Shown here one piece after another: positions 10,836 through 63,474 of a stretch of 64,000 nucleotides of DNA. The notes under the pieces were generated by a model. It had not been told where the DNA came from and did not search any database. It saw only the letters and a list, made by a program, of their open reading frames with translations. The position numbers and the translations under genes are program-made. Source of the DNA: Paenarthrobacter sp. DKR-5. GTDB taxonomy: Bacteria; Actinomycetota; Actinomycetes; Actinomycetales; Micrococcaceae. Each line of letters begins with the position of its first letter. The stretch's first letter is position 1. The stretch covers positions 434,001 to 498,000 of the forward strand of contig NZ_JAHBOI010000003.1 in NCBI RefSeq assembly GCF_018531425.1. Reading direction: 5' to 3'.

Positions 10836-10846
10836 GCGCACCGAGG

Positions 10847-10889
10847 CCTTCCCCCGGCTCTTTGTTGCCAGCAGGGAGCCGGGGGAAGG
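10847..10889 (+). terminator. Strong hairpin that also covers the next gene's ribosome-binding site
   Basis: A perfect 14-bp inverted repeat pairs 10847-10860 (CCTTCCCCCGGCTC) with 10876-10889 around a 15-nt loop. No T-run follows. The right arm contains GGGGGAAGG, the ribosome-binding site of the ATG at 10901. It may be an intergenic terminator or mRNA-stabilising hairpin, or it may restrict translation of the next gene. Confidence 0.65.
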
Positions 10890-10900
10890 AAGCTTGGGGC

Positions 10901-11977
10901 ATGAACTGCGATGTGCTGATCGTCGGCGGCGGGATCGCCGGGCTGTCCCTGGCGTCCGTGCTGGCCGGCCGCTGCTCGGTGATGCTCGTTGAGGCCGAGG
11001 CGGAGCTGGCCTACCACACCTCATCCCGTTCGGCCCGGCAGATGCAGCCCAGCTACGGTCCCGGACCGGTGAAGGAACTGACCCGGCGCACCATCGCCCG
11101 GGTCCAGGGGTTGAAGGCGGCCGCGGGCCTGGACATTCTGAGCCCGCGGCCGCTCATCTTCATCGGCTCCGGGCAGCAGGTGGCGGCGCTGACCGCAGCG
11201 AACAGCTTCCTTGCTCCGCTCACGCACGCGGAGGCGCTGCGGCTCAGCCCGGACCTGGCCCCGGGCTCCTTCGAAGCGGCCTGCCTCGACGGTTCGGCGC
11301 TGGAGGTGAAGGTCCCGGAGCTGCTGGGCTACTACGAGCGGCAGGCCGTGCAGGCCGGGGCGGCCATTCACCGCGGAAGTCCCGTGCACACCGCGCAGCG
11401 CACCGGTGCCGGGTGGAGCGTCGGGGCTGGACAGCTCGGGATCACCGCCGGCACCGTGGTGGACGCCGCCGGGGCATGGGCGGACCCGCTCGCGGTGCTC
11501 TTCGGCGTCGAAAACCAGGGCCTGCAGCCGCACCGCCGCACCGCCGCCATCGCGGCGACCGCCCGTCCGGCGGATCCGGCAGGTCCGATGATCGCAGCGG
11601 CCGACGACTCGTTCTACTACCGCCCGGATGGCACCGACCTGCTCATCTCGCCGTGCGAGTCCGTGCCCAGCATCGCCGAGGACGCCCGGCCCTTCCCGGG
11701 TGATGTGGAGAAGCTGGTGGCCCGGCTGAACCGCGTGACGACGCTGGGCATCAGCGGAATCCGCCGGGCCTGGACGGGACTGCGCACCACCCCGGCGGAC
11801 GGGCTGCCCGTGGTCGGATTCGATCAGGAAGCGCCGGGCTTCTTCTGGCTCGCCGGGCAGGGCGGTTACGGGATCCAGACTTCGGCGGCGATGGCCGACC
11901 TCGCGACCGGACTCATCCTCGGCGAGTCGGACGGCACCGACGAGGTCGCCGCGGCCCTCGCTCCCCGGCACCGCTGA
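10901..11977 (+). CDS. FAD-dependent amino-acid/amine oxidoreductase (DAO family)
   Basis: This 358-aa flavoprotein has an N-terminal FAD-binding Rossmann motif (DVLIVGGGIAGLSLASVL). Its HTSSRSARQMQPSYG region and the C-terminal AGQGGYGIQTSAAMADL resemble D-arginine dehydrogenase and related DadA-like enzymes, so D-amino-acid or amine oxidation is the likely chemistry. The ATG at 10901 follows GGGGGAAGGA; an upstream in-frame ATG lies inside the mannosidase gene. It may be read with the mannosidase operon, but the hairpin between them suggests separate control. Substrate unknown. Confidence 0.75.
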   Translation: MNCDVLIVGGGIAGLSLASVLAGRCSVMLVEAEAELAYHTSSRSARQMQPSYGPGPVKELTRRTIARVQGLKAAAGLDILSPRPLIFIGSGQQVAALTAANSFLAPLTHAEALRLSPDLAPGSFEAACLDGSALEVKVPELLGYYERQAVQAGAAIHRGSPVHTAQRTGAGWSVGAGQLGITAGTVVDAAGAWADPLAVLFGVENQGLQPHRRTAAIAATARPADPAGPMIAAADDSFYYRPDGTDLLISPCESVPSIAEDARPFPGDVEKLVARLNRVTTLGISGIRRAWTGLRTTPADGLPVVGFDQEAPGFFWLAGQGGYGIQTSAAMADLATGLILGESDGTDEVAAALAPRHR

Positions 11978-11987
11978 GCGGAACCCC

Positions 11988-12992
11988 CTAGACCGGGCGG
12001 CGGGCCCAGGACACCAGCCGGTCGCTGAGCTCCATGAACCCCTTGTCCACCGCCTGTTCCTCGGGGTGCTGCTCGTACCACTGGACGATCTCGCGCGCTC
12101 CCTCAGCGAAGGGGATCGTGGCGGCATAATCCGGGACCAGGGACTTGATCTTCGTGTTGTCGAAGATGACCGAGTGCGCCTTGTCCCCGACCAGGCCCGG
12201 CCCCCGCTCAGGGTCCGCCGCCGCAATGGTGTCCGAGGCGACGTGCACCAGTTCGGGCTCCGGCGCGCCGGCCGCCTGCGCGAAGATCCGGTAGATGGCA
12301 TCCCACGGCAGGTACTCGTCCGAGGTGATCGTGTAGGCCTCGCCGATGGCTTGCGGGCGAGCGAGCAGGCCGGTGAAGGCCTTGGCGAAGTCCCGGCTGT
12401 GGGTCAGCGTCCACAGTGACGTCCCGTCGCCGTGCACCACCACAGGGACACCTTCGCGCATCCGGTGGATATCCGTCCAGCCGCCCAGCAGCGGGATCTT
12501 CGTCCGGTCGTAGGTGTGCGAGGGCCGCACGATGGTGGCGGGGAAGCCATCGCGGCGGTACGCCTCCAGCAGCAGGTCCTCGCAGGCGATCTTGTCCCGC
12601 GAGTACTGCCAGAACGGGTTGCGCAGCGGCGTCGACTCCAGCACCGGCACCCGGCCCGGCGGCTTCTGGTACGCGGAGGCGGAGCTGATGAACACGTACT
12701 GGCCGGTCCGGCCGCTGAAGTGCCCGATCCCCGCCTGAACCTGGTCCGGCGTGAAGGAGAGGAAATCGGCGACGGCGTCGAACTCGCGGCCGCGCAGGGC
12801 GTCGCGGACGGCGGCCGCGTCGCGCACGTCCGCGGTGATCAGCTCCGCGCCGTCCGGCACCGGATGCTGCGCGGATTTCCCGCGGTTGAGGATGGTCAGC
12901 CGGTGCCCGTGCTCGATGGCGTGTTCGACGCACGCGGCGCTGATGACGCCGGTGCCCCCGACGAACAGGATGCTCGCTCCCACGGCGCTCAC
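11988..12992 (-). CDS. NAD-dependent epimerase/dehydratase (extended SDR)
   Basis: This 334-aa protein begins with a nucleotide-binding GGTGVISAACVEHAIEHGH motif and contains the SDR catalytic pair in YSRDK (YxxxK). The middle resembles NAD-dependent epimerases and mRNA-binding CSP41-like SDRs of actinobacteria (ADFLSFTPDQV, PSHTYDRTKIPLLGGW). It is convergent with the FAD oxidoreductase, ten nt away. Its start overlaps the stop of the aldo/keto reductase upstream (ATGA), so the two are co-transcribed. A sugar-nucleotide or sugar substrate is likely but not defined. Confidence 0.8.
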   Translation of the reverse strand: MSAVGASILFVGGTGVISAACVEHAIEHGHRLTILNRGKSAQHPVPDGAELITADVRDAAAVRDALRGREFDAVADFLSFTPDQVQAGIGHFSGRTGQYVFISSASAYQKPPGRVPVLESTPLRNPFWQYSRDKIACEDLLLEAYRRDGFPATIVRPSHTYDRTKIPLLGGWTDIHRMREGVPVVVHGDGTSLWTLTHSRDFAKAFTGLLARPQAIGEAYTITSDEYLPWDAIYRIFAQAAGAPEPELVHVASDTIAAADPERGPGLVGDKAHSVIFDNTKIKSLVPDYAATIPFAEGAREIVQWYEQHPEEQAVDKGFMELSDRLVSWARRPV

Positions 12993-13960
12993 CAGGCGTA
13001 GTCTTCGGGGGCGGTGCGGTGGCCGGGGAAGATCGCATCCAGGCGCTTGAGCGCGTCCTCGTCGAGCCGCACGTCGAGGGCGCGGAGCGCCGCGTCGAGC
13101 TGTTCCTGCGTGCGCGGGCCGACGATCGGCGCCGTCACCGCGGGCTGGTGCAGCAGCCAGGCGAGGCCGACGTCGCCGGGCTCGTGGCCGAGTTCGGCGG
13201 CGAAGTCCTCGTACTGCTCAATCTGCTCCCGGTGCGTCTTGAGGGTTTCCGCGGCGCGGCCCTCGGTGCGGCGGACGCCTTCGCGCTCCTTCCGCAGCAC
13301 ACCGCCCAGCAGGCCGCCGTGCAGCGGGGACCACGGGATCAGGCCGAGCCCGAATTCCTGGGCAGCCGGAATGACTTCCAGTTCGACGCTGCGGGTCAGC
13401 AGGTTGTAGATGGACTGTTCGCTGACCAGCCCGGTGTAGTTGCGCCGCGCGGCGGCCGCCTGGGCCTGCGCGATGTGCCAGCCGGCGAAGTTGCTGCTGC
13501 CGGAGTAGAGGATCTTGCCCTGCTGGACGGCCACCTCGATGGCCTGCCAGATTTCATCCCACGGGGTGTTCCGGTCGATGTGGTGGAACTGGTAGATGTC
13601 GATGTAATCCGTCTGAAGCCGCTTGAGGCTGGCGTCCAGCGCGCGGCGGATGTTCAGCGCCGAGAGCTTCGACTCGTTCGGCCGGTCCGTCATCGTGCCG
13701 TACAGCTTGGTGGCCAGCACCGTCTTCTCGCGGCGCTCGCCTCCTTTGGCGAACCAGCGGCCGATGATTTCCTCGGTCCAGCCGCGGTGCTCCACGCCGC
13801 CGTACACGTTGGCCGTGTCAAAGAAGTTGATGCCGGCGTCGTGCGCCGAATCCATGATCGAGTGGGCGGCGGCTTCCTCGGTCTGCGGCCCGAAGTTCAT
13901 GGTGCCGAGGCAGAGACGGGAGACGCTCAGGCCGGAACGGCCCAGATGGGTGTACTGCAT
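12989..13960 (-). CDS. Aldo/keto reductase (YghZ/Kv-beta-like)
   Basis: This 323-aa TIM-barrel oxidoreductase has the AKR active-site region FFDTANVYGGVEHRGWTEEIIG, the catalytic Lys region TVLATKLYG and the NADPH-binding C-terminus TAPIVGPRTQEQLDAAL. The full-length family architecture is preserved. The ribosome-binding site AAGGAAG lies just before the ATG. The 5' untranslated region runs through a four-copy 17-bp tandem repeat. It is the first gene of a two-gene unit with the SDR epimerase. Confidence 0.88.
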   Translation of the reverse strand: MQYTHLGRSGLSVSRLCLGTMNFGPQTEEAAAHSIMDSAHDAGINFFDTANVYGGVEHRGWTEEIIGRWFAKGGERREKTVLATKLYGTMTDRPNESKLSALNIRRALDASLKRLQTDYIDIYQFHHIDRNTPWDEIWQAIEVAVQQGKILYSGSSNFAGWHIAQAQAAAARRNYTGLVSEQSIYNLLTRSVELEVIPAAQEFGLGLIPWSPLHGGLLGGVLRKEREGVRRTEGRAAETLKTHREQIEQYEDFAAELGHEPGDVGLAWLLHQPAVTAPIVGPRTQEQLDAALRALDVRLDEDALKRLDAIFPGHRTAPEDYAW

Positions 13961-16126: not shown

Positions 16127-17347
16127 ATGACCCCCCTACCGGAAGCGCCGGCGTCACTGCTGATCACCAACATCGGCGAACTGATGACGCAGGACCTGGA
16201 GCACCGCGTCCTGCACGGGGCCGCCGTCGTCGTCGAGCACGGGCGCGTCGCCTGGATCGGCCCCGCCGGGGAGGCGCCCGCAGCCGACAACCGGTTCGAC
16301 GCCGGCGGCGGGGCGGTGCTCCCCGGATGGGTGGACTCGCACTCCCATCTCGTGTTCGCGGGGGACCGCACAGCCGAGTTCGAAGCGCGGATGGCGGGGG
16401 AGAGCTACGCGGCCGGAGGAATTGCCGTCACCACCCAGGCCACGCGCGCCGCCTCGGACCAGGAGCTGGCGGACCTGCTCCGCGCCCGGGTCGCCGAGGC
16501 ACAGGCCCAGGGCACGACCTACCTGGAAACGAAGACCGGGTACGGGCTCACCGTGGCCGACGAACAGCGCAGCGCCCGCGTGGCCGCCGGGCTGGTGGAG
16601 CAGGTGACTTACCTCGGGGCGCACCTGGTGCCGCCGGGAGCGGACGCGGACGAGTACCTGGACCTGGTCTGCGGGCCGATGCTCGAAGCGGTCAAACCCT
16701 ACGCCCGGTGGGCGGACGTGTTCTGCGAGCAGGGGGCCTTCAGCGAGGACCAGTCCCGGCGCGTGCTCGCCGCCTGCCGCGAGGCCGGGCTCGGCCTGCG
16801 GGTCCACGGCAACCAGCTCGGCCCCGGCGCCGGGGCCCGGCTCGCGGTGGAATTCGGCGCCGCCAGCGTGGATCACGTGAACTTCCTCTCCGACGAGGAT
16901 GTGGCCGCGCTCGCCGCAAGCTGGCACGGCTGGGATCCGGCTACCGGCTCCGGCAGGCAGGGCACGGTGGCGACCTGCCTGCCCGCCTGCGACCTCTCAA
17001 CCCGGCAGCCGCTGGCGCCAGGGCGGCGCCTGCTCGACGCCGGGGTTCCGGTGGCACTCGCCTCGAACTGCAATCCCGGCACGTCCTACACCACGTCCAT
17101 GAACTTCTGCGTCACGACCGCGGTGCTGCAGATGGGCCTGAGCGTGCACGAGGCCGTCCGGGCCGCGACCTACGGCGGGGCGCTGGCCCTCGGCGTGCAC
17201 GCCGGATCCGGCGCGGTCGGTTCCCTCGCCGTCGGCCACCGGGCGGACCTGCAGCTGCTGCGGGCTCCGTCCGCCACCCATTTGGCGTACCGTCCAGGCG
17301 TGCCGCTGACGGCCGCTGTCTGGCGCGCAGGAGAACGCGTCGCCTGA
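16127..17347 (+). CDS. hutI: Imidazolonepropionase
   Basis: This 406-aa amidohydrolase carries the metal-binding DSHSHLVFAGDR motif, YLETKTGYGLTV, the substrate and zinc region RVHGNQLGPGAGARLAVEFGAASVDH and CNPGTSYTTSMNF. It converts imidazolone-5-propionate to N-formimino-L-glutamate in histidine degradation. The ATG at 16127 follows AAGGAGC; longer upstream reading frame passes through a terminator hairpin and is not used. The other hut genes (hutH, hutU) are not adjacent in this window. Confidence 0.88.
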   Translation: MTPLPEAPASLLITNIGELMTQDLEHRVLHGAAVVVEHGRVAWIGPAGEAPAADNRFDAGGGAVLPGWVDSHSHLVFAGDRTAEFEARMAGESYAAGGIAVTTQATRAASDQELADLLRARVAEAQAQGTTYLETKTGYGLTVADEQRSARVAAGLVEQVTYLGAHLVPPGADADEYLDLVCGPMLEAVKPYARWADVFCEQGAFSEDQSRRVLAACREAGLGLRVHGNQLGPGAGARLAVEFGAASVDHVNFLSDEDVAALAASWHGWDPATGSGRQGTVATCLPACDLSTRQPLAPGRRLLDAGVPVALASNCNPGTSYTTSMNFCVTTAVLQMGLSVHEAVRAATYGGALALGVHAGSGAVGSLAVGHRADLQLLRAPSATHLAYRPGVPLTAAVWRAGERVA

Positions 17348-52368: not shown

Positions 52369-52442
52369 GGGGCTGTAGCTCAGCCGGTTAGAGCAGCGGA
52401 CTCATAATCCGTCGGTCGTGGGTTCAAGCCCCACCAGCCCTA
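52369..52442 (+). tRNA. tRNA with anticodon CAT (elongator Met or lysidine-modified Ile)
   Basis: The 74-nt gene folds fully: acceptor GGGGCTG/CAGCCCT with a G-T first pair, D-arm GCTC...GAGC, anticodon loop CTCATAA and T-arm GTGGG-TTCAAGC-CCCAC. The anticodon stem lacks the initiator GGG/CCC pairs, so it is not initiator Met. Met and Ile2 cannot be told apart here without comparison. Its 3' end faces the integrase-bearing element and is the likely attachment site. Confidence 0.92.
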
Positions 52443-52446
52443 CAAT

Positions 52447-52485
52447 AACCGCAGGTCAGAGGCACAATGCCCCTGGCCTGCGGTT
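52447..52485 (+). terminator. Terminator after the CAT-anticodon tRNA
   Basis: A 17-bp stem with one mismatch (52447-52463 with 52469-52485; core CCGCAGG/CCTGCGG) encloses loop ACAAT and ends in TTGTTTCGTT. Confidence 0.85.
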
Positions 52486-52498
52486 GTTTCGTTGGCAC

Positions 52499-52519
52499 GG
52501 ACCCAACGTTTACCCAACG
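52499..52519. repeat. 21-nt repeat, left copy (inverted partner at 58252)
   Basis: The sequence contains two direct ACCCAACG octamers separated by TTT, preceded by GG. Its exact reverse complement occurs at 58252-58272. It lies about 60 nt inside the tRNA end, where arm-type integrase or excisionase sites are usually placed. Confidence 0.9.
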
Positions 52520-52567: not shown

Positions 52568-53068
52568 TCAAACGTGTGCGAATACGGAGTGCCAAGACGG
52601 GACTCCCAGATCACACGGCCGCTGGAATGGGACCCGCAAGGGCATCACAGGAAGCCCGTTATTCGCCGCCCGCAGACTTTGCGACAGGTCGACCCAACTT
52701 TCGAGAAGGTCGAAGTCGTACGACACCAAGCTCGGAATAGTCCCCGCTTCCTCCACGCGGCTTCCCCCCAGGAAATCCACCACGAAGACAACCTTCTCAG
52801 CGTCGTCTGAACCCTTGTTCCTCATCTTCAGGACCTTTTTCGTTCGATCCCATTCGAGGCCCCAGACGACATCGTGGCGCTCGATCTGGCGTTGCTCGAC
52901 CCGTTCCGCGATGTCCGATGAACGGGCAGCCTCTTCCGCCGAACGCCTGGCCGCCTCGGACGACGCCTCCGCATGCCTGTTGGCAGTACCCGCGCGCCTC
53001 CACATCAGAAAGCTGAAGATGGATGCCGCGACAGCCACCGCGATAGCCACCCAATCCGAGCTAGACAT
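52568..53068 (-). CDS. Small single-pass membrane protein of the integrase operon
   Basis: This 166-aa protein has one N-terminal transmembrane helix (DWVAIAVAVAASIFSFLMW), then an Ala/Glu/Arg-rich probable coiled coil (about 25-65) and a cytoplasmic beta-rich domain (HDVVWGLEWDRTKKVLKMRNKG). It is not recognised. The ATG at 53068 has AAGGAG 5-6 nt upstream; it overlaps the integrase gene by 8 nt, so it is coupled to it. Base composition is lower in GC than the chromosome. Expressed with repressor and integrase, it could act in exclusion of other phages or lysogenic conversion; this is inference. Confidence 0.75.
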   Translation of the reverse strand: MSSSDWVAIAVAVAASIFSFLMWRRAGTANRHAEASSEAARRSAEEAARSSDIAERVEQRQIERHDVVWGLEWDRTKKVLKMRNKGSDDAEKVVFVVDFLGGSRVEEAGTIPSLVSYDFDLLESWVDLSQSLRAANNGLPVMPLRVPFQRPCDLGVPSWHSVFAHV

Positions 53069-54263
53069 CAAGTCTCCTTCTCACCGCTTGATCGAGGACC
53101 TCCGCTACCTCCACATGCGTAGTTTTCCGTCCGTGGTAGCGGTCCTGAGTCATGGACACATTCGCATGCCCTAACTGATCCGCGCCCACACGGGCCGACA
53201 GCCCCTGCGCATCAATCATGGTCGCCACCGTCTTCCGGAACGTGTGGGACGTTACCCAGTCGAATCCGAGCCGGTCCCGCACCTTCCGCCACTGCTTCGA
53301 CACCGCCGACGGGTCCCGCAGCGACCCCGTAGACGACGGGAACACGGCGTTGTGCAGGTTCGGCACGGACTCGACCTGCCGGCGCAGCAGCATGGCCACA
53401 GCGAAACCGGGCAGGGGCAGGGTGCGTTCACCGGCCTCGCTCTTGAGGAAACCTTCACGGATCATGCCCTGGCCCTTGGTGCGGCCGACCTTCCCGCTGA
53501 TCGCCACCGTCTTGGCGTCGAGGTTGATGTCTTCCCACCGGATGCCCAGCACCTCGCTGATGCGGGCCCCGGTGCCGGCGAACATGGTGACGACGTCCGC
53601 GAGGTCAGCCTCCGCGCAGTACTCCGCCAGGGTGAGGCCGGGACGGACCTTGTTGCCCGGGTTGATCGGAATAGGGGAGTGGTGCACGGCGTCGAGAATG
53701 CCGCGGAGCTCGTCGACGGTGAGGGCGCGGGCTTTCTTCACGGGGGCGGTGCGCACATTGCCGACGTCGCGGACGGGGTTGTGTGTGATCGCGTCGTAGC
53801 GGACGGCGAGCCCGAACATGCCGGAGAGGATGACGCGGGCCGTAACAGCGACGGAGGGGCCGCTGTTGGCCGCCAGAGCCTTCAGGAACCCGTCGAGGCG
53901 CTGAGTGGTGGCTTCGCGGATTCTGAGCCCTCCCAGGCCCTTCACGACGTACCCGGCGACGTACTCGTACCTCTCGAATGTCCTGGGGGAGCGGCCTTCG
54001 GTGCGCAGGTGCCCCAAATAGGCGTCCCAGAGGGCGGTGAGCCTCGTGTTGGGGCTGAGGTCTTCGGTGGTGGGGGCGGTGCGTTCGGTGAGGGCGGCGA
54101 CGAGGTTTCGTTCGGCTGCGGCCCCGGTACGCCCCGACCGTTCGACCAGGCGGGTGATGCCGTCGAGGTCACGCACGCGGGCTTTCGCCACCCAAGCAGC
54201 GTTGCCCTGCTGTGTGCGGGTGATTTTCCCCCAGGAGCCGAGGGGCAGGGCCGGCCTAGGCAT
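53061..54263 (-). CDS. Tyrosine recombinase/integrase
   Basis: This 400-aa integrase has an N-terminal arm-binding region with RGDGxxx-like basic residues, a SAM-like core-binding domain (about 75-165) and a complete catalytic set: Arg234 (GTGARISEVLG), His340 and Arg343 (SHTFRK), His366 (QLGHANV) and Tyr376 (DRYHGR). The element should therefore be able to integrate and excise if other parts work. The ATG shares one base with the stop of the XRE gene upstream (TAATG). It lies close to the tRNA attachment site, as usual for tRNA-targeting integrases. Confidence 0.95.
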   Translation of the reverse strand: MPRPALPLGSWGKITRTQQGNAAWVAKARVRDLDGITRLVERSGRTGAAAERNLVAALTERTAPTTEDLSPNTRLTALWDAYLGHLRTEGRSPRTFERYEYVAGYVVKGLGGLRIREATTQRLDGFLKALAANSGPSVAVTARVILSGMFGLAVRYDAITHNPVRDVGNVRTAPVKKARALTVDELRGILDAVHHSPIPINPGNKVRPGLTLAEYCAEADLADVVTMFAGTGARISEVLGIRWEDINLDAKTVAISGKVGRTKGQGMIREGFLKSEAGERTLPLPGFAVAMLLRRQVESVPNLHNAVFPSSTGSLRDPSAVSKQWRKVRDRLGFDWVTSHTFRKTVATMIDAQGLSARVGADQLGHANVSMTQDRYHGRKTTHVEVAEVLDQAVRRRLDV

Positions 54264-54739
54264 TACCGGGCACCCTTCCTTGCGTCGCCTTCGCTCAGCT
54301 CGTGCGCTGAAGCTGGGACCTCATTTCCCATCTCATCAATATCAGCAGCAGTCGGTCCTAGCTGGGGCGTCAGGACGAGGTTGATATTTATCGCTCGGAG
54401 TTCCTGCCGCATCTGAGAGAGCGTACGGATGACCTGATCCGACATGTCATCTACGGCCTTGAGCCGGTTGATGACGTCCACCAGCGTGGCATTCAGATCG
54501 TCGACGGGCGTGGTCAGTAGCTGATCGATCGTAGACCCCAACGCCGACGCAAGTGCCGGTGCTTCGGTTAGCTTGACGGCGCGGTCTCCATTCTCAACGC
54601 GTGACAGTGTTCCTTGTGTCCACGGGACGCCGCGTGACCGGAGTGCTTGCGCCAGTTCTGACTGGCTCAAGCCTGTCTCCTCGCGCAGGCGGGCCACGGC
54701 TCGTCCAACTGCTCGGTTATTTTCTTGGTCCTCACTCAT
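54263..54739 (-). CDS. XRE-family repressor-like protein
   Basis: This 158-aa protein has an N-terminal helix-turn-helix (LREETGLSQSELAQALRSRG, then WTQGTLSRVENGDRAV, about 18-55) and a C-terminal helical region (about 75-125) that may dimerise. No LexA-type peptidase domain is present. It is the first gene of the leftward operon with integrase and faces the excisionase-like gene across an operator-rich gap, the position of an immunity repressor. Confidence 0.87.
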   Translation of the reverse strand: MSEDQENNRAVGRAVARLREETGLSQSELAQALRSRGVPWTQGTLSRVENGDRAVKLTEAPALASALGSTIDQLLTTPVDDLNATLVDVINRLKAVDDMSDQVIRTLSQMRQELRAININLVLTPQLGPTAADIDEMGNEVPASAHELSEGDARKGAR

Positions 54740-54845: not shown

Positions 54846-55046
54846 ATGAGCGCTATCGACACACCGGAGCGTCACCTCACCCCCCAGGACCTGGCTGACC
54901 GCCTCGGCGTCCCTCTACAAACCGTCCGTCTCTGGCGGCACAAAGGCGTAGACCCGCAGGCCATGAAGCTCGGCCGGCACGTCCGCTACCGCCTTTCCGA
55001 CGTCCTCGCATGGGAGCAAGCAAAAGTCGAGGCAGGCAGCAAGTGA
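54846..55046 (+). CDS. Excisionase-like HTH protein
   Basis: This 66-aa protein is a single MerR/excisionase-type helix-turn-helix (LTPQDLADRLGVPLQTVRLWRHKG, then MKLGRHVRYRLSDVLAWEQAK). Proteins of this size next to an integrase commonly direct excision or act as early regulators. It starts the rightward operon; GAGAAAGG lies before the ATG. It is divergent from the repressor. Confidence 0.85.
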   Translation: MSAIDTPERHLTPQDLADRLGVPLQTVRLWRHKGVDPQAMKLGRHVRYRLSDVLAWEQAKVEAGSK

Positions 55047-55144: not shown

Positions 55145-55633
55145 ATGTCCACTGTAACCGACCACGTCTCGACCACCTACAGTGACCGCCCCAATCAGTT
55201 CCTCTTCCAGGACGACGGGCCCCGGCACCCCGACTGCGCGGAATTTTGCGTCTGCCACGCCGGCGACGAGTGTGTGGGTCCGCAGACCCTCACCGCCCCG
55301 GGAATCGAGGACGACGAGGGCGCCGCCCAACCCGACCATCTGGTCGTTTATCCGTTCCACCGCGAGGACATCGATCAGGGCGGAGTGTTCCTCGGCCCGG
55401 AACGCGGCGGCGACGGTCAGGCGGGCACCTATCTGACCGAGGCCGCGGCCTTGCAGCTCGCGGCCGACCTCCTCGCCGCGGTCGAGATCCGGCACGCCGA
55501 CGAAATCAGGGAAATCACAGTCGACTACGGTATCGACGTGTCGATCATCGACATGATCACGCTGTCACACAGCCTCCTCGACACCAGCATCCTCGCCCGC
55601 CGTATCCAGGCCGCCGGGGATGCAGACGAGTGA
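55145..55633 (+). CDS. Small Cys/His-containing protein (DUF6907-like)
   Basis: This 162-aa acidic protein has a Cys/His cluster (HPDCAEFCVCHAGDECVG) and a helical segment YLTEAAALQLAADLLAAVEI near the C-terminus. It resembles small actinobacterial proteins grouped as DUF6907, which occur often on mobile elements; this assignment is tentative. A GTG three nt before the ATG is an alternative start. Its stop overlaps the start of the primase-helicase gene (GTGA). Confidence 0.6.
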   Translation: MSTVTDHVSTTYSDRPNQFLFQDDGPRHPDCAEFCVCHAGDECVGPQTLTAPGIEDDEGAAQPDHLVVYPFHREDIDQGGVFLGPERGGDGQAGTYLTEAAALQLAADLLAAVEIRHADEIREITVDYGIDVSIIDMITLSHSLLDTSILARRIQAAGDADE

Positions 55634-57177
55634 ACACCGGCCCGTACTTCATGCAGCTGCCGGAAAAGCAGCGGGCACCATTCCTCAAAGAGTTTGGGCG
55701 GCGCGCAGGTGAATGGAAGCAAGACAACCCCGGCAAAAACATGCCCCCCGACGTGCGCACACACCTCGAAGCAGCTGCCACGGCTGCCACCAGCCCGGTA
55801 GATGCCGCCCCGACCCAACCCGCCACCGGCGCGGACACCACCGAACACCGCGGCCAGGCGCTCATAGCGACAACGCTCGTCCACAACTGGCCGGACAAGC
55901 TACGGCACGTTTACAACCTCGGCTGGCGCCACTGGGACGGGAAGCGCTGGGCGGCCGACGAACACGGCCACGCCAAAAGGGCCGTCCTCGAAACCATCCT
56001 CTCCGCGAAACACAAAGCCATCGATGACGACGACAAGGGGCTCATGCGAGACGCCGAACGCTGCGAAAGCGCCGCCGGCATCGCAGGCGTACTGGACATC
56101 GCAGCAGCGCTCCCGCCCTACGCCATCACCGTCGCCGACCTCGACGCCGACCCATACCTCCTCAACGTCGCCAACGGAACCCTCGACCTGCGCACAGGTG
56201 AACTCAGGCCTCACGACCCGGCGGACAACATCACCAAGCTCGCGGCGGCCGCTTACGACCCGGATGCGCCCTCAAAAACGTGGGATGCCTTCCTGGCCAG
56301 GAGCCTCCCCGACGAAGCCGTGAGGGGCTTCCTGCAACGCTTCATCGGGCAAGCCCTCGTCGGCCTCACCCTCGAACACCTCCTGGCCATCCTCACCGGC
56401 ACCGGCCGCAACGGCAAAAGCGTCCTCTGGGCCACAATCTCCGCCGCGCTCGGAGACTACGCCGCCATGGCAGAACCCGACCTGTTCATGCACCGCGAGA
56501 ACGCCCACCCAACCGGCGAAATGGACCTCCTCGGCCGCCGCCTCGTCGCTGTCTCCGAATCTGACCAAGGCCGCCGGCTAGCCGAAGCGACCGTCAAACG
56601 CCTCACAGGCGGTGACAAAATTCGTGCCCGGAAAATGCGGCAGGACTTTGTCGAGTTCACACCTTCGCATTCGGTCGCGCTCATCACGAACCACCTGCCC
56701 AAAGTCAGCGGCGACGACCCCGCCATTTGGGCTCGCATCCGCGTCGTCCCGTTCGGCGTCGTCATTCCCCGCGCCGAACGGGATCCCAAGCTGCCGGAGA
56801 AACTCCACCTCGAGCTCGACGCCGTCCTGACCTGGGCTGCTTGTGGCTGGAGGGAATACCAAGCGCACGGGCTGGCGGAGCCGGACGCGGTCATGGTGGC
56901 CACGGAGCACTACCAGGCGGACAGCGATGCGCTCGGCAGGTTCCTGGAGGAATGCTGCGAAACCGGGCCGGGCCTGTCAGCGCTCACCGAGGCCTTGCAC
57001 CGGGAATGGAGCACCTGGGCTTTCCAGGAAGGCGCCTCACCAATGGGCAAAAAAGCCTTCGGCGAGGCGCTTGAGGCGCGCGGATTCCCCGTGAAGCGAG
57101 GTACTGGCGGCATCCGATCGAGGCTCGGAATCACTCTGAAAACGCCGGCTTACGGCAACGGCTTGGACCAACAGTGA
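55630..57177 (+). CDS. P4-family phage/plasmid primase-helicase (D5-like)
   Basis: This 515-aa protein has a D5 N-terminal-like region (about 130-230: LNVANGTLDLRTGELRPHDPADNITKL) and an SF3 helicase domain with Walker A GTGRNGKS (257-264), Walker B-like LLGRRLVAVSES, and sensor/motif C VALITNHLPKVSGDDPAIWARIRVVPF. A C-terminal winged region follows. It lacks an evident N-terminal primase zinc domain. P4-type elements use such proteins for autonomous replication. The GTG start overlaps the preceding stop; AT-rich mirrored repeats follow. Confidence 0.92.
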   Translation: MNTGPYFMQLPEKQRAPFLKEFGRRAGEWKQDNPGKNMPPDVRTHLEAAATAATSPVDAAPTQPATGADTTEHRGQALIATTLVHNWPDKLRHVYNLGWRHWDGKRWAADEHGHAKRAVLETILSAKHKAIDDDDKGLMRDAERCESAAGIAGVLDIAAALPPYAITVADLDADPYLLNVANGTLDLRTGELRPHDPADNITKLAAAAYDPDAPSKTWDAFLARSLPDEAVRGFLQRFIGQALVGLTLEHLLAILTGTGRNGKSVLWATISAALGDYAAMAEPDLFMHRENAHPTGEMDLLGRRLVAVSESDQGRRLAEATVKRLTGGDKIRARKMRQDFVEFTPSHSVALITNHLPKVSGDDPAIWARIRVVPFGVVIPRAERDPKLPEKLHLELDAVLTWAACGWREYQAHGLAEPDAVMVATEHYQADSDALGRFLEECCETGPGLSALTEALHREWSTWAFQEGASPMGKKAFGEALEARGFPVKRGTGGIRSRLGITLKTPAYGNGLDQQ

Positions 57178-57299: not shown

Positions 57300-57668
57300 A
57301 TGGCAGCCACCACCAATGCCACCAACACCCAAATCAGCTTCCTGACCGTCCCCATCAAAGTTCTCGACATCGCCGGCGAACGCCTCACCAAAAGAATTTA
57401 CTGGCAACTCGACTACGTCCCGGCCGAGAAATGGGAGCATTTCGAACCCATCGGCCGCGTCAACGGCATCGACACCGGACACTTCTTCTCGCTTTGCCTG
57501 GTCGGCCTCTGGAAACCCACCGGAGAGCTCTGCCGCCTACACCTCCACTCCACCCGCCATCCAATCCTCGGCAAGCCGGAAGACCCCAGCCACACCGACC
57601 CGATCCTCGCCGCCCTCTACGACGAGTACGCCCGCCTGCCCCTCATCATCCTCGGGAGCAACAAATGA
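57300..57668 (+). CDS. Hypothetical protein of the element
   Basis: This 122-aa protein is not recognised. It is mixed alpha/beta (IYWQLDYVPAEKWEHFEPIGRVNG; FFSLCLVGLWKPTGELCRLHLHSTRHP) with no membrane segment. The ATG at 57300 follows AGGA; a longer frame would run through the mirrored repeats. It ends in the start codon of the XRE gene (ATGA), so it belongs to the rightward operon. Confidence 0.65.
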   Translation: MAATTNATNTQISFLTVPIKVLDIAGERLTKRIYWQLDYVPAEKWEHFEPIGRVNGIDTGHFFSLCLVGLWKPTGELCRLHLHSTRHPILGKPEDPSHTDPILAALYDEYARLPLIILGSNK

Positions 57669-58261
57669 ACAACGAGGCGACCGGTCGATCGGCCGGCCCC
57701 GGTGGGCGTGCGGGCGTTACGCGACGCGACCGGCGCGGGGAGGTGGGCGACGTCGAGCGGGAGCGGCTGGCCGCTGGTTTCGGTGCTGAACTGTCCCGGC
57801 TGCGGGCTGCCGCCGGCCTCACGATTGACCGGGCCTCGGAGCTGGCCGGCTTGAACCGTCAGAGCCTGTCCCGACTCGAGCACGGGCGCACCCGTCCCAC
57901 CGTGGACAGCATCAACGCCCTCGCCGCCGTCCTGGACCCGGTCACGACCACGGTCAGCGTGGACAGGTTGAGGGCGTTGGCGGGTCCGAGCTTACGGACG
58001 CATCACCGTCGGCGGTCGCCGGCCCGGAAGGCGCTCACCGTGTCACAGGCGGAGTGGGCGTTGCGGTCCCTGCTCCGCACCCAGGAGGACAACCGCAGGG
58101 CCGCGAAGGGCCTGCCGGCGGCGTTGGTGGAGCGGGAGGCTGCGATCCTTGCACCACTGATCGAGCAGGCGCGGGAGGACTTGGCCAGGGCGGAGGCGCT
58201 CGCCGAGGTCGAGGTCACGGTCCGTCGCAACCGGGGTGAATCGGGTGAAAGCGTTGGGTAA
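57665..58261 (+). CDS. XRE-family regulator
   Basis: This 198-aa protein has a basic N-terminal tail, a canonical helix-turn-helix (LRAAAGLTIDRASELAGLNRQSLSRLEHGRTRPTVDSINALAAVL, about 45-95) and a helical C-terminal half. It is the second XRE protein of the element and the last gene of the rightward early operon. Its stop codon lies in the inverted 21-nt repeat. A late regulator or an additional repressor is likely. Confidence 0.85.
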   Translation: MNNEATGRSAGPGGRAGVTRRDRRGEVGDVERERLAAGFGAELSRLRAAAGLTIDRASELAGLNRQSLSRLEHGRTRPTVDSINALAAVLDPVTTTVSVDRLRALAGPSLRTHHRRRSPARKALTVSQAEWALRSLLRTQEDNRRAAKGLPAALVEREAAILAPLIEQAREDLARAEALAEVEVTVRRNRGESGESVG

Positions 58262-58272
58262 ACGTTGGGTCC
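58252..58272. repeat. 21-nt repeat, right copy (inverted partner at 52499)
   Basis: Two direct CGTTGGGT octamers separated by AAA and followed by CC make the exact reverse complement of 52499-52519. The copy overlaps the stop codon of the XRE gene. Confidence 0.9.
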
Positions 58273-58345
58273 TGTCGTCGCCCGGGCGCTCAGTGCCGCT
58301 GCTTTCCCAGTGCTGGCGCGGGAATGTCCGGGTTCGATCCATGGA

Positions 58346-58678
58346 ATGCGTGGTTATGAGTCAGTCCCAAGGGCCCTCGTGACCGGCGAGGATCGGGCGG
58401 CCGTGACCGGCGTCTTCATCGTCAGCAACCCTGCTCGCTTCGGCCTACCCGACACGTCAGGCGGGTGGGGGCTGGTTGATCTCGTCTGGCCTGCGTCGGG
58501 TACCCGGGCCACTGCGGCCGTGGACCGGGCGTTCACGGTCATGGTGAAGGAAGCTTACGACTTGGGCATGGAGGTCGATCTGCCGTCCAGGCACTTCCGG
58601 CTCATCCGGGGCGGCCACATCCTCGACTGGGAACGGGTGGACGACCCGGCCGCCTGGGCGGAGGTCAACCATGGTTGA
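58346..58678 (+). CDS. Hypothetical protein
   Basis: This protein of about 110 aa is not recognised (RAAVTGVFIVSNPARFGLPDTSGGWGLVDLVWPASG; AFTVMVKEAYDLGMEVDLPSRHF). The start is uncertain: ATG 58346 has no good ribosome-binding site, and a TTG at 58265 would add 27 residues. It overlaps the WhiB gene by 8 nt, which supports co-translation with it. Confidence 0.5.
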   Translation: MRGYESVPRALVTGEDRAAVTGVFIVSNPARFGLPDTSGGWGLVDLVWPASGTRATAAVDRAFTVMVKEAYDLGMEVDLPSRHFRLIRGGHILDWERVDDPAAWAEVNHG

Positions 58679-58973
58679 GCCGGAGCTGCTCGAACATGGA
58701 CGTGCCCCGTTGTCCATGCTGGGCGTCCCGCACCACGCCATGGCCGCGTGGCGGGCCCTGCTCGACGCACTGGAGGCGAACCCGGTCACCCCGTGCAGGA
58801 CCATGCTCACTCCGGAGCAGTGGTTCACCCCATCCAGGCCGCAACGCAAAGCAGCGGCCGCCGCGTGCGCAGGCTGCCCCGTGCTCCTCCAATGCCAGGC
58901 ATACGCGTACGCAGCCCCGGAGCGCACAGGGATCTGGGGCGGGATGCTGCCGGAGGAGCGCCGCAATGGCTGA
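58671..58973 (+). CDS. WhiB-family iron-sulfur transcription factor
   Basis: This 100-aa protein has the four cluster Cys of WhiB proteins (Cys42, Cys66, Cys69, Cys75 in ACAGCPVLLQC) and the turn motif GIWGG (87-91). WhiB proteins are restricted to actinobacteria and their phages and act with sigma factor to control genes. The C-terminal basic tail after GIWGG is very short, so DNA binding may be weak. Some phage WhiB proteins mimic host WhiB2 to interfere with it; that role here is only possible. Confidence 0.87.
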   Translation: MVEPELLEHGRAPLSMLGVPHHAMAAWRALLDALEANPVTPCRTMLTPEQWFTPSRPQRKAAAAACAGCPVLLQCQAYAYAAPERTGIWGGMLPEERRNG

Positions 58974-59364
58974 TCTGGTGCCCTTGGGCGCGCTCGTACG
59001 CGGACCGATCGCCCACGCGATGCTGCGCTCTCTCATGAGAGACCTAAACGCCCAGGCCCGGCTGAACGGTGCCCCGATCCCGGCCTGGGCGCTGCCCGTG
59101 TACCAGGCGCTGGAGGCTGCGTCGGGCGAGGCCGTGCTGAGACCTTCGACGGTCATGTCCGCTAGCGGACCTCCATTTGAGACTGTGAAGGTGTCAGGTG
59201 ACGACTGGGTTCCAGTTGCTGCTGCTGCCGCCCAAACCGGCCTGAGCGAGCGCCACATTCGGCGCCTCGCTCAGGCCGGCCAGGTACGCGCTGAGCGCTT
59301 CGGAGGACGCACCTGGCGCATAGACCTAAATTCACTTACCAACGTCCTTAGGAGGGCGGCATGA
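58966..59364 (+). CDS. HTH (MerR/excisionase-type) protein
   Basis: This 132-aa protein has an N-terminal helical part and a C-terminal helix-turn-helix (DDWVPVAAAAAQTGLSERHIRRLAQAGQVRAERFGGRTWRIDLNSL, about 80-125). It is similar in type to the small excisionase-like protein at 54846 but longer. It overlaps WhiB by 8 nt and the next gene by 4 nt (ATGA), placing it in a tight operon that leads to the tape-measure gene. Confidence 0.78.
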   Translation: MADLVPLGALVRGPIAHAMLRSLMRDLNAQARLNGAPIPAWALPVYQALEAASGEAVLRPSTVMSASGPPFETVKVSGDDWVPVAAAAAQTGLSERHIRRLAQAGQVRAERFGGRTWRIDLNSLTNVLRRAA

Positions 59365-60149
59365 CCACAACACCAACCGAAGACCCGGACGCGATCATCG
59401 CCTCCGCCGAGCAGGAAGCCCAGGAGGCCGCCCAGCTCGTCGAAACCCTCGAGGGGAAGGTCCGGTCCGGCGACGACACGGTGACCCACGAAGAGATTTC
59501 CAACGCCCGGCGACTGCTGGACTTCGTGAGGCTCCGCAGGGAGGGGGCAGCGGTCAAGGCTGCCAAAGCCCGGGAACAGGCCCGCCGGCAGGCCTGCGAA
59601 GCGCTCAAAGCCGAAATCGACGCCCACACTGCGGGTGAGGGTGAAGTCCTGGCGCAGCATCTCGGCGGCGCCCTGGACAGCCTGCGGGCCTTCGTCGCCG
59701 CCGTCAACGAGCACAACGAGCGGGTGTACGGGTGGCGGGCCCGGGCCGAGGAGCTCGGCGTGCCCGTGCACCTGCACCCGACGACCCCGCCAGCGGAGCA
59801 TGGACGGCTTGGGCTGGCGAAGAACGGGTACACCGGGTGGACGGGAGCCGGCATCATCGCCGGCCGCCGGCAGATCGACAACCTGGATGCCAACCACTTC
59901 ATCAGCAGGGCGTTCGAGCTGCTCCGCGCAGAAGGACTCTTCCGCCCAGTGGAAGGTGTCCAGGCCGGCGACCTGCTAGCCGACGTCGCGAACGTCGACT
60001 TCGACCGGGCACCCGCCGACGGCGCCCTCTTCTTCTACAGGAACCAGGAGACCGGTGCCGTGTTCCGTTTCGACAAGCCCAAGGACCAGGACTTCCTCAC
60101 CCGAGGCAACCTGGTCGCGATCAGCCGGCAGGAAGCGTGGGGCGAATGA
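59361..60149 (+). CDS. Coiled-coil protein of the element (phage-like, function unknown)
   Basis: This 262-aa protein starts with a charged coiled coil (about 8-125: AEQEAQEAAQLVETLEGKV; AAVKAAKAREQARRQACEALKAE). A globular C-terminal half (GWTGAGIIAGRRQIDNLDANHFISRAFELL) follows. Scaffold or head/tail assembly proteins can look like this, but there is no specific match I recognise. It overlaps both neighbours by 4 nt. Confidence 0.65.
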   Translation: MTTTPTEDPDAIIASAEQEAQEAAQLVETLEGKVRSGDDTVTHEEISNARRLLDFVRLRREGAAVKAAKAREQARRQACEALKAEIDAHTAGEGEVLAQHLGGALDSLRAFVAAVNEHNERVYGWRARAEELGVPVHLHPTTPPAEHGRLGLAKNGYTGWTGAGIIAGRRQIDNLDANHFISRAFELLRAEGLFRPVEGVQAGDLLADVANVDFDRAPADGALFFYRNQETGAVFRFDKPKDQDFLTRGNLVAISRQEAWGE

Positions 60150-60669: not shown

Positions 60670-63474
60670 ATGTCGGAAGAGACCGAAGTTGGTTCTATTG
60701 TCGGTCGGCTGCGCATCGACTCCTCTGCCTGGAACGCGGCACTTGACGCCGCTGAGGCCAAGGCCCGCGAGCTGGAGTCGGTGGACCCGAAGGTCAAGAT
60801 CGAAACCACGGGCGCGGCTGACGCTTCCGCGAAACTGGACGCGGTCGCCGCGGCCGAGCACCGCCTGGATGTAGCCAGCCGGCAAGCGGCTAACGCTGCG
60901 TCCACTGCCTACGTCGCCTCCGAACGACTCAAGGTAATGCGCGAGCGCGGAAGTGCGACCACCCTGCAGTTGACGGCCGCGGAGGAAGCCCTCGCCAGAG
61001 CGGACCGCAACGCGGAAGGCGCGGAACTCCGCCATTTGGCTGCCACTGAGGCGCTCAACAAGGCCAAGGAAACCGCGGTAGCAAGGACGGTGGAGGACGC
61101 GGCCGCCACCGAGACCGATACGGCGGCCAAGAAAAACAACACCCAGGCCACCCAGAACAACGCGGGCGCGATGGGACTCCTCTGGAGTGCCCTGGCCATG
61201 ATCGCCCCCGCTGCGGTGCCGATCGCAGCCGCTGCCACCGCGGGCGGCGTCGCGCTCGCGGGGATGGGCGCCGCCGGCATCCTGGCCATCAAAGGTATCC
61301 ACGACGAAATGGCGGCTGGCACGTACCAGGGCAACCAGTACGCGGCCGGCCTGTCCGTGCTGAAGGACGACCTGGATGGGCTGTCGCGGACCGGCGCGTC
61401 CGCGTTCCTGAACACCTTCCAGGGCGGGGTGGCCACCCTCAACGGTGTCATGCCGCAGCTCACCAGCGACGTGTCCGTGTTCGGCGCGGAAATGGGCAAC
61501 ACCGTCACCCACGGGCTCGGATTCGCTCTCGGTGCGATGCAGGCGCTGCAGCCCGCGGCTGTGATCTTCGGTGCCTGGCTGACGAACGTCACGGCGAAGC
61601 TGGACGCGTTCGGCCACTCACAGGGCATGAAGGACTTCGCCGAGTACGCCATGCAGGCAATTCCCCCGGTGACCGCGACCATCGAGTCCCTGGTGACGGC
61701 GGCGTTCCACCTGCTGCAGGGACTCGCACCCATCGGCAACGTCGCACTCACCAGCCTGAAGGTCCTGGCTGACGCGATCAACGCGCTGCCGGTGGAAGCC
61801 ATCACGGTCCTCGCCCCCGCGGTGTCCGGTGCTGTTGGGGCGTTCATGCTCTTCAAGAACGTGATCCCCGTCCTGGAGGCATTCGGTATAGCCGAGAACA
61901 TCGCGTTGGGTCCTGTCGGCCTCATCGTCGCTGGCGTGGGCCTGCTCGCCGGGGCGCTGGTGGGCATGTCCGCCGCCACCCAGACCAACACCGGGGACGT
62001 CACCAGCTGGACCACCGCCCTGGAGCAGTCCAACGGTGCGATCGACGCGAACATCCAGAAGATGGCCGCGAAGAAGGCGGAGGACGGCGGTTTGCTCGAC
62101 GCCGCTAACCAGCTGGGGATATCCCTGCCGCAGGTCACCGACGCGATCCTCGGCCAGGGTGACTCCCTTGACCAGGTGAAGGCGAAGGCCGAGCAGGCCA
62201 TCGACGCTTACGACAACAGCGCGGTCAGTGTGGACAACATGGGCCGGGCCACCCACCTTGTCACCCAGCAGCAACAAGACCAGTACGATGCGGCGACCAA
62301 GCTCTTGAGCGGCATCAGCAGCTTGAATGGCGGCCTGCAGCAAGGGGAGCACAACTACAAGAACTACACATCAGCGATCACCAGTAGTTCAACGGCTTCC
62401 ACAGCGCAGGCATGGGCCACGCAGCAGGCCGCTAACGCTGCTCACATGTCGGTGGACGCGTATTTGGCGGCGGGTAAGGCAGCGGACGCCCAGGCGGCCC
62501 AACAGCAAGCGGCCGCTAACGCCATGTACCGGGAGAACGACGCCGGCGGGCTTCTCAAAGTCACCCTCGATGCGCTGAACGGCAAAACCATCAGTGCGGC
62601 TCAGGCCCAGAACACATTCGATTCGGCCATCGCCAACAGCGATAAGCACGTGGATGCGACGGGAAAGACCATCAACCGGGCCTCGACGTCGCTCGACGGC
62701 ATGTCGGCGGCGGCGGTGAAGAACCGTGGCGAGCTCATCAACCAAGTCACGGACCTGAACAGTGTGGCTGAGGCCATGCGCAACAACGGGGCCAAGACCG
62801 ACGAGACCCGCAACAAGATGATCGCCATGCGCAACGAAATCATTGATAATGCGGTCGCGCACGGCGAAAACAGGGACTCTGTCATCCGGTACCTGGACAG
62901 CCTGTTCAAGATTCCGAGGTCCATTCCGCCCACGCAGCTTGAGGTCGATAACGCTCAGGCCGTCGCGGCAATTGCCGCGGTCAAGGCGGGCCTGGACAAC
63001 CTGCACGACAAGGTCATCTACACGACCATCATGGAATCGACCATGAACAGCGGGAACACGGGGCTGACGTCCGGTGTGGGAACACATGGAGGGGGAACCC
63101 GTTTCGCGCAGCGTGAAGGCGGTCTCGTGCCCCGGCACCTCGCCAGCGGCGGGTGGGCCGACATCACCGGTGGCGGCCTCCTGCACGGCGCCGGGGGACC
63201 CACCCAGGACCTGGTGCCGATCATGGGATCCCCGGACGAGTTCATGACCAAAGCCTCCTCGGTCAGGTCCATCGGTCCCGACGCGTTCGAGTACATGAAC
63301 CGCACCGGGCAGCTGCTCACACAACCCGTCCCCGTCCCATCCGGGCCGGCCCCGGCGCCGGTCGTGCACGTGTACATCGACGGCCGGGAAATGCGGTCCG
63401 ACATGGTCAATGTGGCCGTCCAGCAGATTGGTAATTGGGTCGCTGACCAGAACCGACGGCGTCCGGGCGCCTGA
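60670..63474 (+). CDS. Phage tail tape-measure protein
   Basis: This 934-aa protein has an N-terminal heptad-rich helical region (about 20-150) and hydrophobic segments at about 168-208 and 370-440. Long Ala/Gln/Asn helical stretches follow, then a C-terminal Gly-rich end (GGGLLHGAGGPTQDLVPIMGSPDEFMTKASSVRSIGPDAFEYMN) of the kind that closes many tape-measure proteins. Tape measures set tail length; at about 0.15 nm per residue this one would fit a tail near 140 nm. AAGGAGA precedes the ATG. No tail tube, assembly chaperone or baseplate genes flank it. Confidence 0.9.
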   Translation: MSEETEVGSIVGRLRIDSSAWNAALDAAEAKARELESVDPKVKIETTGAADASAKLDAVAAAEHRLDVASRQAANAASTAYVASERLKVMRERGSATTLQLTAAEEALARADRNAEGAELRHLAATEALNKAKETAVARTVEDAAATETDTAAKKNNTQATQNNAGAMGLLWSALAMIAPAAVPIAAAATAGGVALAGMGAAGILAIKGIHDEMAAGTYQGNQYAAGLSVLKDDLDGLSRTGASAFLNTFQGGVATLNGVMPQLTSDVSVFGAEMGNTVTHGLGFALGAMQALQPAAVIFGAWLTNVTAKLDAFGHSQGMKDFAEYAMQAIPPVTATIESLVTAAFHLLQGLAPIGNVALTSLKVLADAINALPVEAITVLAPAVSGAVGAFMLFKNVIPVLEAFGIAENIALGPVGLIVAGVGLLAGALVGMSAATQTNTGDVTSWTTALEQSNGAIDANIQKMAAKKAEDGGLLDAANQLGISLPQVTDAILGQGDSLDQVKAKAEQAIDAYDNSAVSVDNMGRATHLVTQQQQDQYDAATKLLSGISSLNGGLQQGEHNYKNYTSAITSSSTASTAQAWATQQAANAAHMSVDAYLAAGKAADAQAAQQQAAANAMYRENDAGGLLKVTLDALNGKTISAAQAQNTFDSAIANSDKHVDATGKTINRASTSLDGMSAAAVKNRGELINQVTDLNSVAEAMRNNGAKTDETRNKMIAMRNEIIDNAVAHGENRDSVIRYLDSLFKIPRSIPPTQLEVDNAQAVAAIAAVKAGLDNLHDKVIYTTIMESTMNSGNTGLTSGVGTHGGGTRFAQREGGLVPRHLASGGWADITGGGLLHGAGGPTQDLVPIMGSPDEFMTKASSVRSIGPDAFEYMNRTGQLLTQPVPVPSGPAPAPVVHVYIDGREMRSDMVNVAVQQIGNWVADQNRRRPGA

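Follow-up and report, generated by a model that had tools for sequence, protein, structure and literature searches.

A predicted integrase arm-type site with a conserved, inverted internal copy in tRNA-integrated, satellite-like islands of Paenarthrobacter and its relatives

A 21-nt sequence that occurs twice, in opposite orientations, in a stretch of DNA from Paenarthrobacter sp. DKR-5 is probably the arm-type site of a heterobivalent tyrosine integrase, present as an arm of attL, as an arm of attR and as a conserved, inverted internal site. Integrase arm sites are usually regarded as parts of att alone. The place of the repeat beside att, the conservation of the internal site and the covariation of the motif with the integrase, each seen by comparison, are the grounds on which we infer that the integrase binds these sites. 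The enzyme would recognize two direct ACCCAACG repeats with an 11-bp period at attL and attR, and the internal site would lie, inverted, at the border between the integration and replication genes and the cargo (the WhiB, g11, g12 and tape-measure genes). Throughout, the window is the whole 64,000-nt stretch that was analysed (positions 434001-498000 of contig C9), W is the window's own element, and L-numbers denote the related loci with which it was compared.

Copies of the repeat and the ends of the island

The preliminary description had reported an exact 21-nt inverted repeat with copies 5.7 kb apart, and both its coordinates and its identity proved exact: positions 52499-52519 and 58252-58272 are 100% complementary over 21 nt and lie 5732 nt apart in the window. 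Each copy contains the two octamers with three-base spacing that had been described, ACCCAACG-TTT-ACCCAACG, which gives an 11-bp period. The pattern ACCCAACGN3ACCCAACG has two exact matches within the 64,000-nt window. When up to three mismatches are allowed, there are 3 matches in the window versus a shuffle mean of 0.85, and 8 of 100 shuffles reached 3; so the informative part is the exactness of the double octamer. The genome-wide search that had been proposed found three exact double octamers among 15 contigs (3,777,200 bases), all within W, so the scatter of exact copies over the chromosome that had been named as counterevidence is not seen. On C9 they lie at 486501 (+), 492252 (-) and 498441 (+), equivalent to window positions 52501, 58252 and 64441. 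The third copy (window-equivalent 64441-64459) starts 441 bp past the window end at 64000 and has the orientation of the left copy.

GC-rich DNA commonly contains short repeats, and a repeat that arose by chance was therefore considered. We rejected this explanation, whose probability we regard as negligible, on the basis of the three genomic copies that all fall in W, the conservation of the repeat in relatives L027 and L028, a Markov control and a blind search for arms (see below). Separately, the tape-measure gene holds a single octamer that belongs to a 15-nt match (61904-61918) to the inner site plus flanking bases; both the octamer and the 15-mer were treated as probable chance.

W is a 12.2-kb island within a gene for tRNA-Met(CAT) (52369-52443, + strand; ARAGORN), which is the integration target. 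Exact 48-nt direct repeats at 52397-52444 (+ strand; the attL core) and window-equivalent 64569-64616 (the attR copy, past the window) carry the 3' part of this tRNA. In attL, the predicted arm pair (52499-52519, + strand) lies 93 nt past the CTCATAA of the core. The intervening sequence holds a terminator-type hairpin (52444-52488, + strand; inverted repeat I21), and hairpin-like sequence also occurs in the attL of relatives. The attR carries the matching arm at 64441-64459, along with further single octamers at 64471 and 64544. Arm pairs composed of direct repeats of about 11 bp are found on both sides of the core, in attL and attR, in W and its relatives, and a comparable attL, with ATCCAACGGAAACCCAAC or ACCCACCGGAAACCCACCG, is present in integrase relatives inserted at tRNA-Met, tRNA-Lys and tRNA-Asn. 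The left copy thus occupies the attL position where the preliminary description had expected arm-type sites. On these comparisons, we interpret it as the arm-type site in attL for the tyrosine integrase of W, and the third copy as the attR arm. The suggestion that the two window copies bound an inner 5.7-kb unit was rejected: judging by the third copy at attR and by the relatives, the left copy is an end arm. The right copy lies internally, and W continues beyond it to attR.

The integrase gene (53061-54263, - strand; PF00589 at 4.4e-20, phrog_1) encodes a protein whose AlphaFold2 model (mean pLDDT 84.7, pTM 0.66) has a predicted N-terminal b-b-b-a unit of arm-binding type at residues 15-61. 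A Foldseek search with this model returned Tn1549 Int and lambda Int among its matches, with query-length TM-scores of 0.42-0.58 for the best ten listed. Residues R234, R343 and Y376, which we take to be catalytic, are invariant in 20 of 20 integrase sequences. The N-terminal domain would contact the arm pair and the catalytic part the core-like sequence. In the available part of a study of Cluster K mycobacteriophages, arm-type sites are predicted as pairs of 11-bp repeats that flank the core, and arm-site specificity is attributed to the N-terminus of the integrase (PMC3203893). The arm-type sites of L5, Giles and Cluster K phages are alike in being 11-bp repeat pairs flanking the attP core, but as presented there they lie within attP, whereas W has a further inverted pair 5.7 kb away (PMC3203893).

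The remaining genes suggest that W is phage-satellite-like. Downstream of the integrase gene is a small gene (52568-53071, - strand) with no Pfam or PHROG match. On its other side are the genes for the XRE-type regulator Xre1 (54263-54739, - strand; HTH_31, HTH_3), the excisionase-like HTH_17 protein Xis (54846-55046, + strand; PF12728, phrog_66), a D5_N primase/helicase (55630-57177, + strand; PF08706, phrog_2478) and the XRE-type protein Xre2 (57665-58261, + strand), which is the last gene before the internal site. The cargo comprises genes for a WhiB-like regulator (58671-58973, + strand; PF02467), the HTH protein g11 (58966-59364, + strand; weak phrog_66 match), the marker protein of this satellite group, g12 (59361-60149, + strand; no PHROG match), and a tape-measure-like protein (60670-63474, + strand; phrog_6090 'tail length tape measure protein' at 1.6e-5 over residues 827-911). 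By tblastn, g11 is also found in the cargo module of several tRNA-Tyr satellites. A small gene after the tape measure spans the window end. Among 15 ORFs of W, ten of which were compared with Pfam and PHROGs and five with PHROGs alone, none was assigned to a capsid, portal or large terminase family; a terminase-small-subunit PHROG is matched marginally (2.4e-4) by the excisionase-like protein. Capsid-forming PICIs and the Streptomyces satellites MulchRoom and MiniFlayer are likewise small; they depend on a helper, and MulchRoom has a tyrosine integrase, according to the accessible text of PMC10690885. Those elements encode capsid and packaging proteins, whereas the 15 ORFs of W gave no capsid, portal or large terminase family and W carries the tape-measure-like protein.

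Islands of about 12-16 kb that carry the tape-measure gene and appear satellite-like were found in the same family (W, L027, L028, L050, L052, L183-L186, L202-L205 and L207), and most also have g12.

The internal copy and its association with the integrase

The internal pair (58252-58272, - strand), a predicted arm-type pair, lies outside att, at distances of 5.7 kb from the arm of attL and 6.2 kb from that of attR, and is inverted with respect to the end arms. As had been described, it overlaps the stop of an XRE gene: the TAA at 58259-58261 closes the xre2 frame (57665-58261). In L027 and L028, which are also inserted at tRNA-Met and whose integrases are 66% and 60% identical to that of W, an inverted pair lies at the same place with the xre2 stop inside it. 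The arrangement is therefore found in 3 of 3 tRNA-Met satellites with both xre2 and the tape-measure gene, with constant orientation, and the W-type internal site is known from these three elements. Xre2 is only 42% identical in the relatives with the conserved inner site. The left and inner copies of L027 and L028 read ATCCAACG in the outer octamer, and their attR copies read ACCCAACG, as in W. The preliminary description had named loss from otherwise conserved relatives as evidence against its reading. The inverted copy is kept in L027 and L028, which share xre2 and the tape-measure gene; no internal copy was seen in integrase relatives without these genes, either where the two ends are known (L172, L030) or within the 20 kb examined (L170, L171, L029).

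On the minus strand of W, 83 nt before the inner arm, is the sequence GACTCATAA (58354-58362), which contains the CTCATAA of the att core in attL order (the attL spacing is 93 nt). A weaker match, CTGATAA, occurs 93 and 105 nt from the inner arm in L027 and L028, and the attR of these elements reads TTTGATAA. Counting the site itself, 3 places in W, 30 in L027 and 155 in L028 score as well against a 14-mer core. The evidence for a core-like part of the internal site, a single 9-mer in W, is therefore suggestive there and weak in the relatives. Two other candidate features were dropped. The internal site lies near the element midpoint in W, L027 and L028 (0.48-0.49, by hand), and this idea was abandoned because the internal sites of tRNA-Tyr satellites sit elsewhere. 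A string near 58330 resembling a tRNA T-arm was noticed by eye, in W only. Searches of IMG/VR gave no partner for the exact pair of W, searches with xre2 and g9 in phages gave nothing, and neither did a search with xre2 in viral contigs.

Satellites that have other integrases and a match to the xre2, g12 or tape-measure gene of W were found by xre2, g12 and integrase searches of 395 family genomes, 396 order genomes and selected genera. A single-protein search of genome contigs gave no integrase relatives. An internal pair of the type belonging to the element's own integrase is present in 12 of 15 satellites, a count that includes L186 (an inexact pair) and L207 (a GTGCACAC pair) on a looser form, and such a pair is missing from L184, L185 and L204. 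In tRNA-Tyr satellites the arms are GTGATCAC/GTGAGCAC-like pairs, and the internal copies are of the same type. These copies lie at 12068 in L050; 10370 and 13041 in L051; 10638 and 15095 in L052; 8063 in L183; 8531 and 12849 in L202; 8147 and 12792 in L203; and 7216 and 14371 in L205. Since satellites with other integrases carry their own version of the arm inside, we regard the extra internal site as real.

Two of the exceptions have features of their own. L185 has TCCCTAC arms of its own integrase at both ends, and on its reverse strand GTG-type pairs at 11248 (one mismatch) and at 16348, the latter near attR; these orphan pairs are a likely trace of integrase replacement. In L204 (reverse strand, 9281-13475), the tape-measure match is split over several frames with a second integrase-like match inside, and a site1 core, of the kind described below, is kept while its arm has decayed.

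The arm types ACCCAACG, ACCCACCG, GTGNNCAC, GTGTGTGC and TCCCTAC sort by integrase relatedness and not by Xis or Xre. W and L186 have Xis (61% over 56 aa) and Xre1 (50% over 68 aa) in common and differ in motif; W and L027 have the motif in common, with Xis at 33% over 46 aa and no Xre1 match; and L170-L172 have the motif without an xre2 match. Across the lineages compared, the motif thus appears to follow the integrase rather than Xis, Xre1 or Xre2. This covariation bears on the proposal that the repeat is a site for another protein (Xis, Xre1, Xre2 or a replication protein) that lies beside att by coincidence. The internal copy is near regulator genes, and excisionases also bind repeats about one helical turn apart. 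The motif, however, goes with the integrase and is found to either side of the core, an arrangement that matches predicted arm-type sites; we consider this proposal very unlikely. Of the possibilities raised initially, paired recombinase sites agree with the arm position in attL, the matching attR arm and the tracking of the integrase, and this tracking also makes excisionase or regulator sites less likely. Transcriptional control exerted by the integrase itself may still apply and is taken up below.

Several controls address how often such pairs arise. Exact interior pairs number 14 in 13 elements for the GTG pattern and 3 in 5 elements for the ACCC pattern, and order-2 Markov sequences gave 0 in 20 rounds; this control omitted the outer 400 bp at each end and used patterns taken from sites already seen, and the 14 GTG pairs include the foreign-type pair of L185 and the looser pair of L207. 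A blind search that derived arms from att flanks alone recovered arms in 19 of 20 elements and interior copies in 9 of 14 satellites. It missed the inner site of L027, because the best word pair was shifted, and gave no arms in L051; both were counted from separate comparisons.

Elements with both ends known and no match to xre2, g12 or the tape measure provide a comparison. In the blind search, five of six (L034, L037, L040, L172 and L030) have no interior copy, and the sixth, L206, has one match with 2 mismatches inside its integrase gene that is probably due to chance. Among phages with related integrases, the arm pairs of Mbo4 are confined to the surroundings of its annotated attP, and those of REQ3 to the neighbourhood of the integrase gene and the opposite end of the genome. 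Phage Andrew yielded no pair of such form and so provides no control. Integrase relatives of at least 44% identity outside the group of W showed no internal inverted copy of the left-flank pair, many of these loci being without an att flank. Excluded from the counts were L053 (a weak xre2 match and no tape-measure match) and L029, L031, L058, L075, L170 and L171, in which no attR lies in the stretch examined. In those stretches, no pair beyond that of attL was seen in L029, L031, L058, L170 and L171, and none at all in L075. L190, part of a 60-kb contig, has one attL arm and no other pair in the 21 kb examined.

att-like modules in tRNA-Tyr satellites

The internal pairs of the tRNA-Tyr satellites are preceded, in site orientation, by a GTGAGCTGA-N7-TCAGCTCAC-like core, and the same scan finds the tRNA-Tyr core, whose overlap is CTGTAAA. 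In each module, a core-like inverted repeat, whose overlap is 7 bp long, is followed by a spacer and then an arm pair. The core-to-arm span is 83 bp for most of these sites (6 of 7 modules at the first position, site1, and 5 of 6 at the second, site2) and 72 bp, one repeat period shorter, in L050 and L185; the arm has decayed in site1 of L204 and site2 of L183. In a core scan of 12 elements at a threshold of at least 13 of 18, 26 of 36 matches fall at att cores or internal sites (two with a decayed arm) and 10 elsewhere, where the consensus was drawn from the same sites that it scores and the 26 were counted by hand.

Conservation was compared for 5 of the 7 site1 and 4 of the 6 site2 modules, with random 80-mers as the background for flanks (median 0.14, 95% level 0.53). 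Site1 modules are conserved at 0.75-0.88 in 10 of 10 pairs from five elements, and the outer flank exceeds the random 95% level in 3 of these pairs (0.60-0.65). For site2 (four elements), the values are 0.88-0.94 in 6 of 6 pairs, and none of the six has an outer flank above background (0.04-0.46). In site1 (four elements), invariant positions account for 0.94 of the core arms, 0.86 of the overlap and 0.89 of the arm pair, against 0.36 of the spacer; the site2 fractions are 0.94, 0.86 and 0.95, against 0.72 of the spacer. By this comparison, the 83-bp module is an island of conservation. An additional box resembling GGGAACTTTC precedes the arm pair by about 5 bp in site1 of L202, L203, L205, L052 and L183, and is less exact in site2.

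In L052, L202, L203 and L205, site1 and site2 flank g11, g12 and the tape-measure gene with their arms facing inward and their cores outward. About 2.5 kb separates site1 from g11 in L205, and L051 has other genes between its sites. The overlaps differ, being of TTGGGGA type in site1 and TTCCGTA type in site2, and both are unlike that of the tRNA core. As a result, site1 and site2 should not recombine with each other or with att, and a simple site1-site2 inversion is unsupported. BLASTN blocks between L202 and each of L203, L205 and L052 stop at the outer edge of the site2 core (three pairs), and one L202/L205 block spans just the site1 module, starting at the site1 core. The L202/L203 and L202/L052 blocks run through site1, the former from about 1.3 kb upstream, and mosaic joints also occur elsewhere.

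Other arrangements were seen in single elements. A 90-bp site1 module in L183 (reverse strand, 8063-8152) is inverted and relocated relative to L052 (82% over 90 bp). In L050 (reverse strand, 17171-17280), a second attL-like arm with one mismatch and an att-like flank come right after attR, in a tandem-like arrangement at tRNA-Tyr. Partner sites were sought without success for site2 of L202 (in phages) and for the GTG module pattern (in IMG/VR). In one host chromosome (genome G412), the core pattern matched the two internal sites and one further place, again with no partner.

If internal copies were relics, they would be fossil att sites left by tandem accretion, integrase replacement and deletion. 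The orphan pairs of L185 beside the arms of its present integrase at both ends, the extra arm past attR in L050, and a string near the internal site of L207 that resembles half of the W attL hairpin are all of the kind that such events would leave. However, the core-like and arm parts are conserved as islands whose flanks are often unrelated, an inverted orientation is not a product of tandem accretion, and the site occupies the same place in W, L027 and L028. We consider a relic origin unlikely.

Possible roles of the internal site

The internal sites may be regulatory, with the integrase at the xre2 end blocking or bridging cargo transcription in the integrated state, much as a stoperator would; we regard this as possible but tentative. 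Many internal sites are at gene borders: they cover the xre2 stop in W, L027 and L028, precede the next gene by 25 bp in L051 and by 39 bp in L052, and follow the tape-measure stop by 2-8 bp in L052, L202, L203 and L205. A precedent is MrpR of SPbeta, a repressor with the tyrosine-recombinase fold that has dispersed intergenic sites (SPBRE), and in the accessible text its authors also mention integrases that repress their own synthesis (PMC10516654). Furthermore, a PDB entry with the phi3T repressor SroF appeared at Foldseek rank 37 for the W integrase. Mycobacteriophage stoperators, in the source text available, are dispersed sites of a large phage group that are bound by the immunity repressor.

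Other observations fit a purely regulatory site less well. A conserved 7-bp overlap is not needed for binding alone, and in four elements the site1 overlap is far more conserved than the spacer (0.86 versus 0.36). The place relative to genes varies between groups, and the L050 site is inside the 3' end of an open frame. In contrast to MrpR, which has lost recombinase function (PMC10516654, as far as its text is available), the W integrase looks intact, R234, R343 and Y376 are kept in 20 of 20 integrase sequences, and the internal sites match the element's own att. Unlike stoperators, the arm motif goes with the integrase, and there are one or two internal sites per element.

A second possible role, to which we give qualified preference while holding it short of probable, is as a junction for joining or exchanging modules. 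The internal sites would then be junctions recognized by the integrase, and satellites with an equal site and overlap could join or exchange modules through them. A function other than junction or exchange, control or relic seems to us quite improbable.

A more specific proposal is that these are natural cassette-exchange sites, in which one integrase recognizes the end att sites and internal att-like sites with heterospecific 7-bp overlaps; we find this conceivable but rate it as rather unlikely. In the laboratory method of recombinase-mediated cassette exchange, cargo lies between heterospecific sites of one recombinase. Several tRNA-Tyr satellites are alike in anatomy alone, with cargo between two sites that have different overlaps. 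Their cores face outward from the cargo, so that co-resident satellites could swap cargo while the integration ends stay undisturbed, and the inverted repeat of W would represent a single-site version.

Arm-type sites are a known kind of element. Within the open-licence literature, as far as its text is accessible, we found no description of internal arm-type sites or of a conserved att-like copy in satellites. That the internal copy is conserved and changes in step with the integrase suggests that selection has maintained an additional location for the enzyme within the element. If this is a recombination site, it would offer a concrete route to the modular mosaicism of satellites; if it is regulatory, an ordinary integrase would be a regulator of satellite cargo. 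The internal site may mark a junction where parts of these elements join, swap or are controlled.
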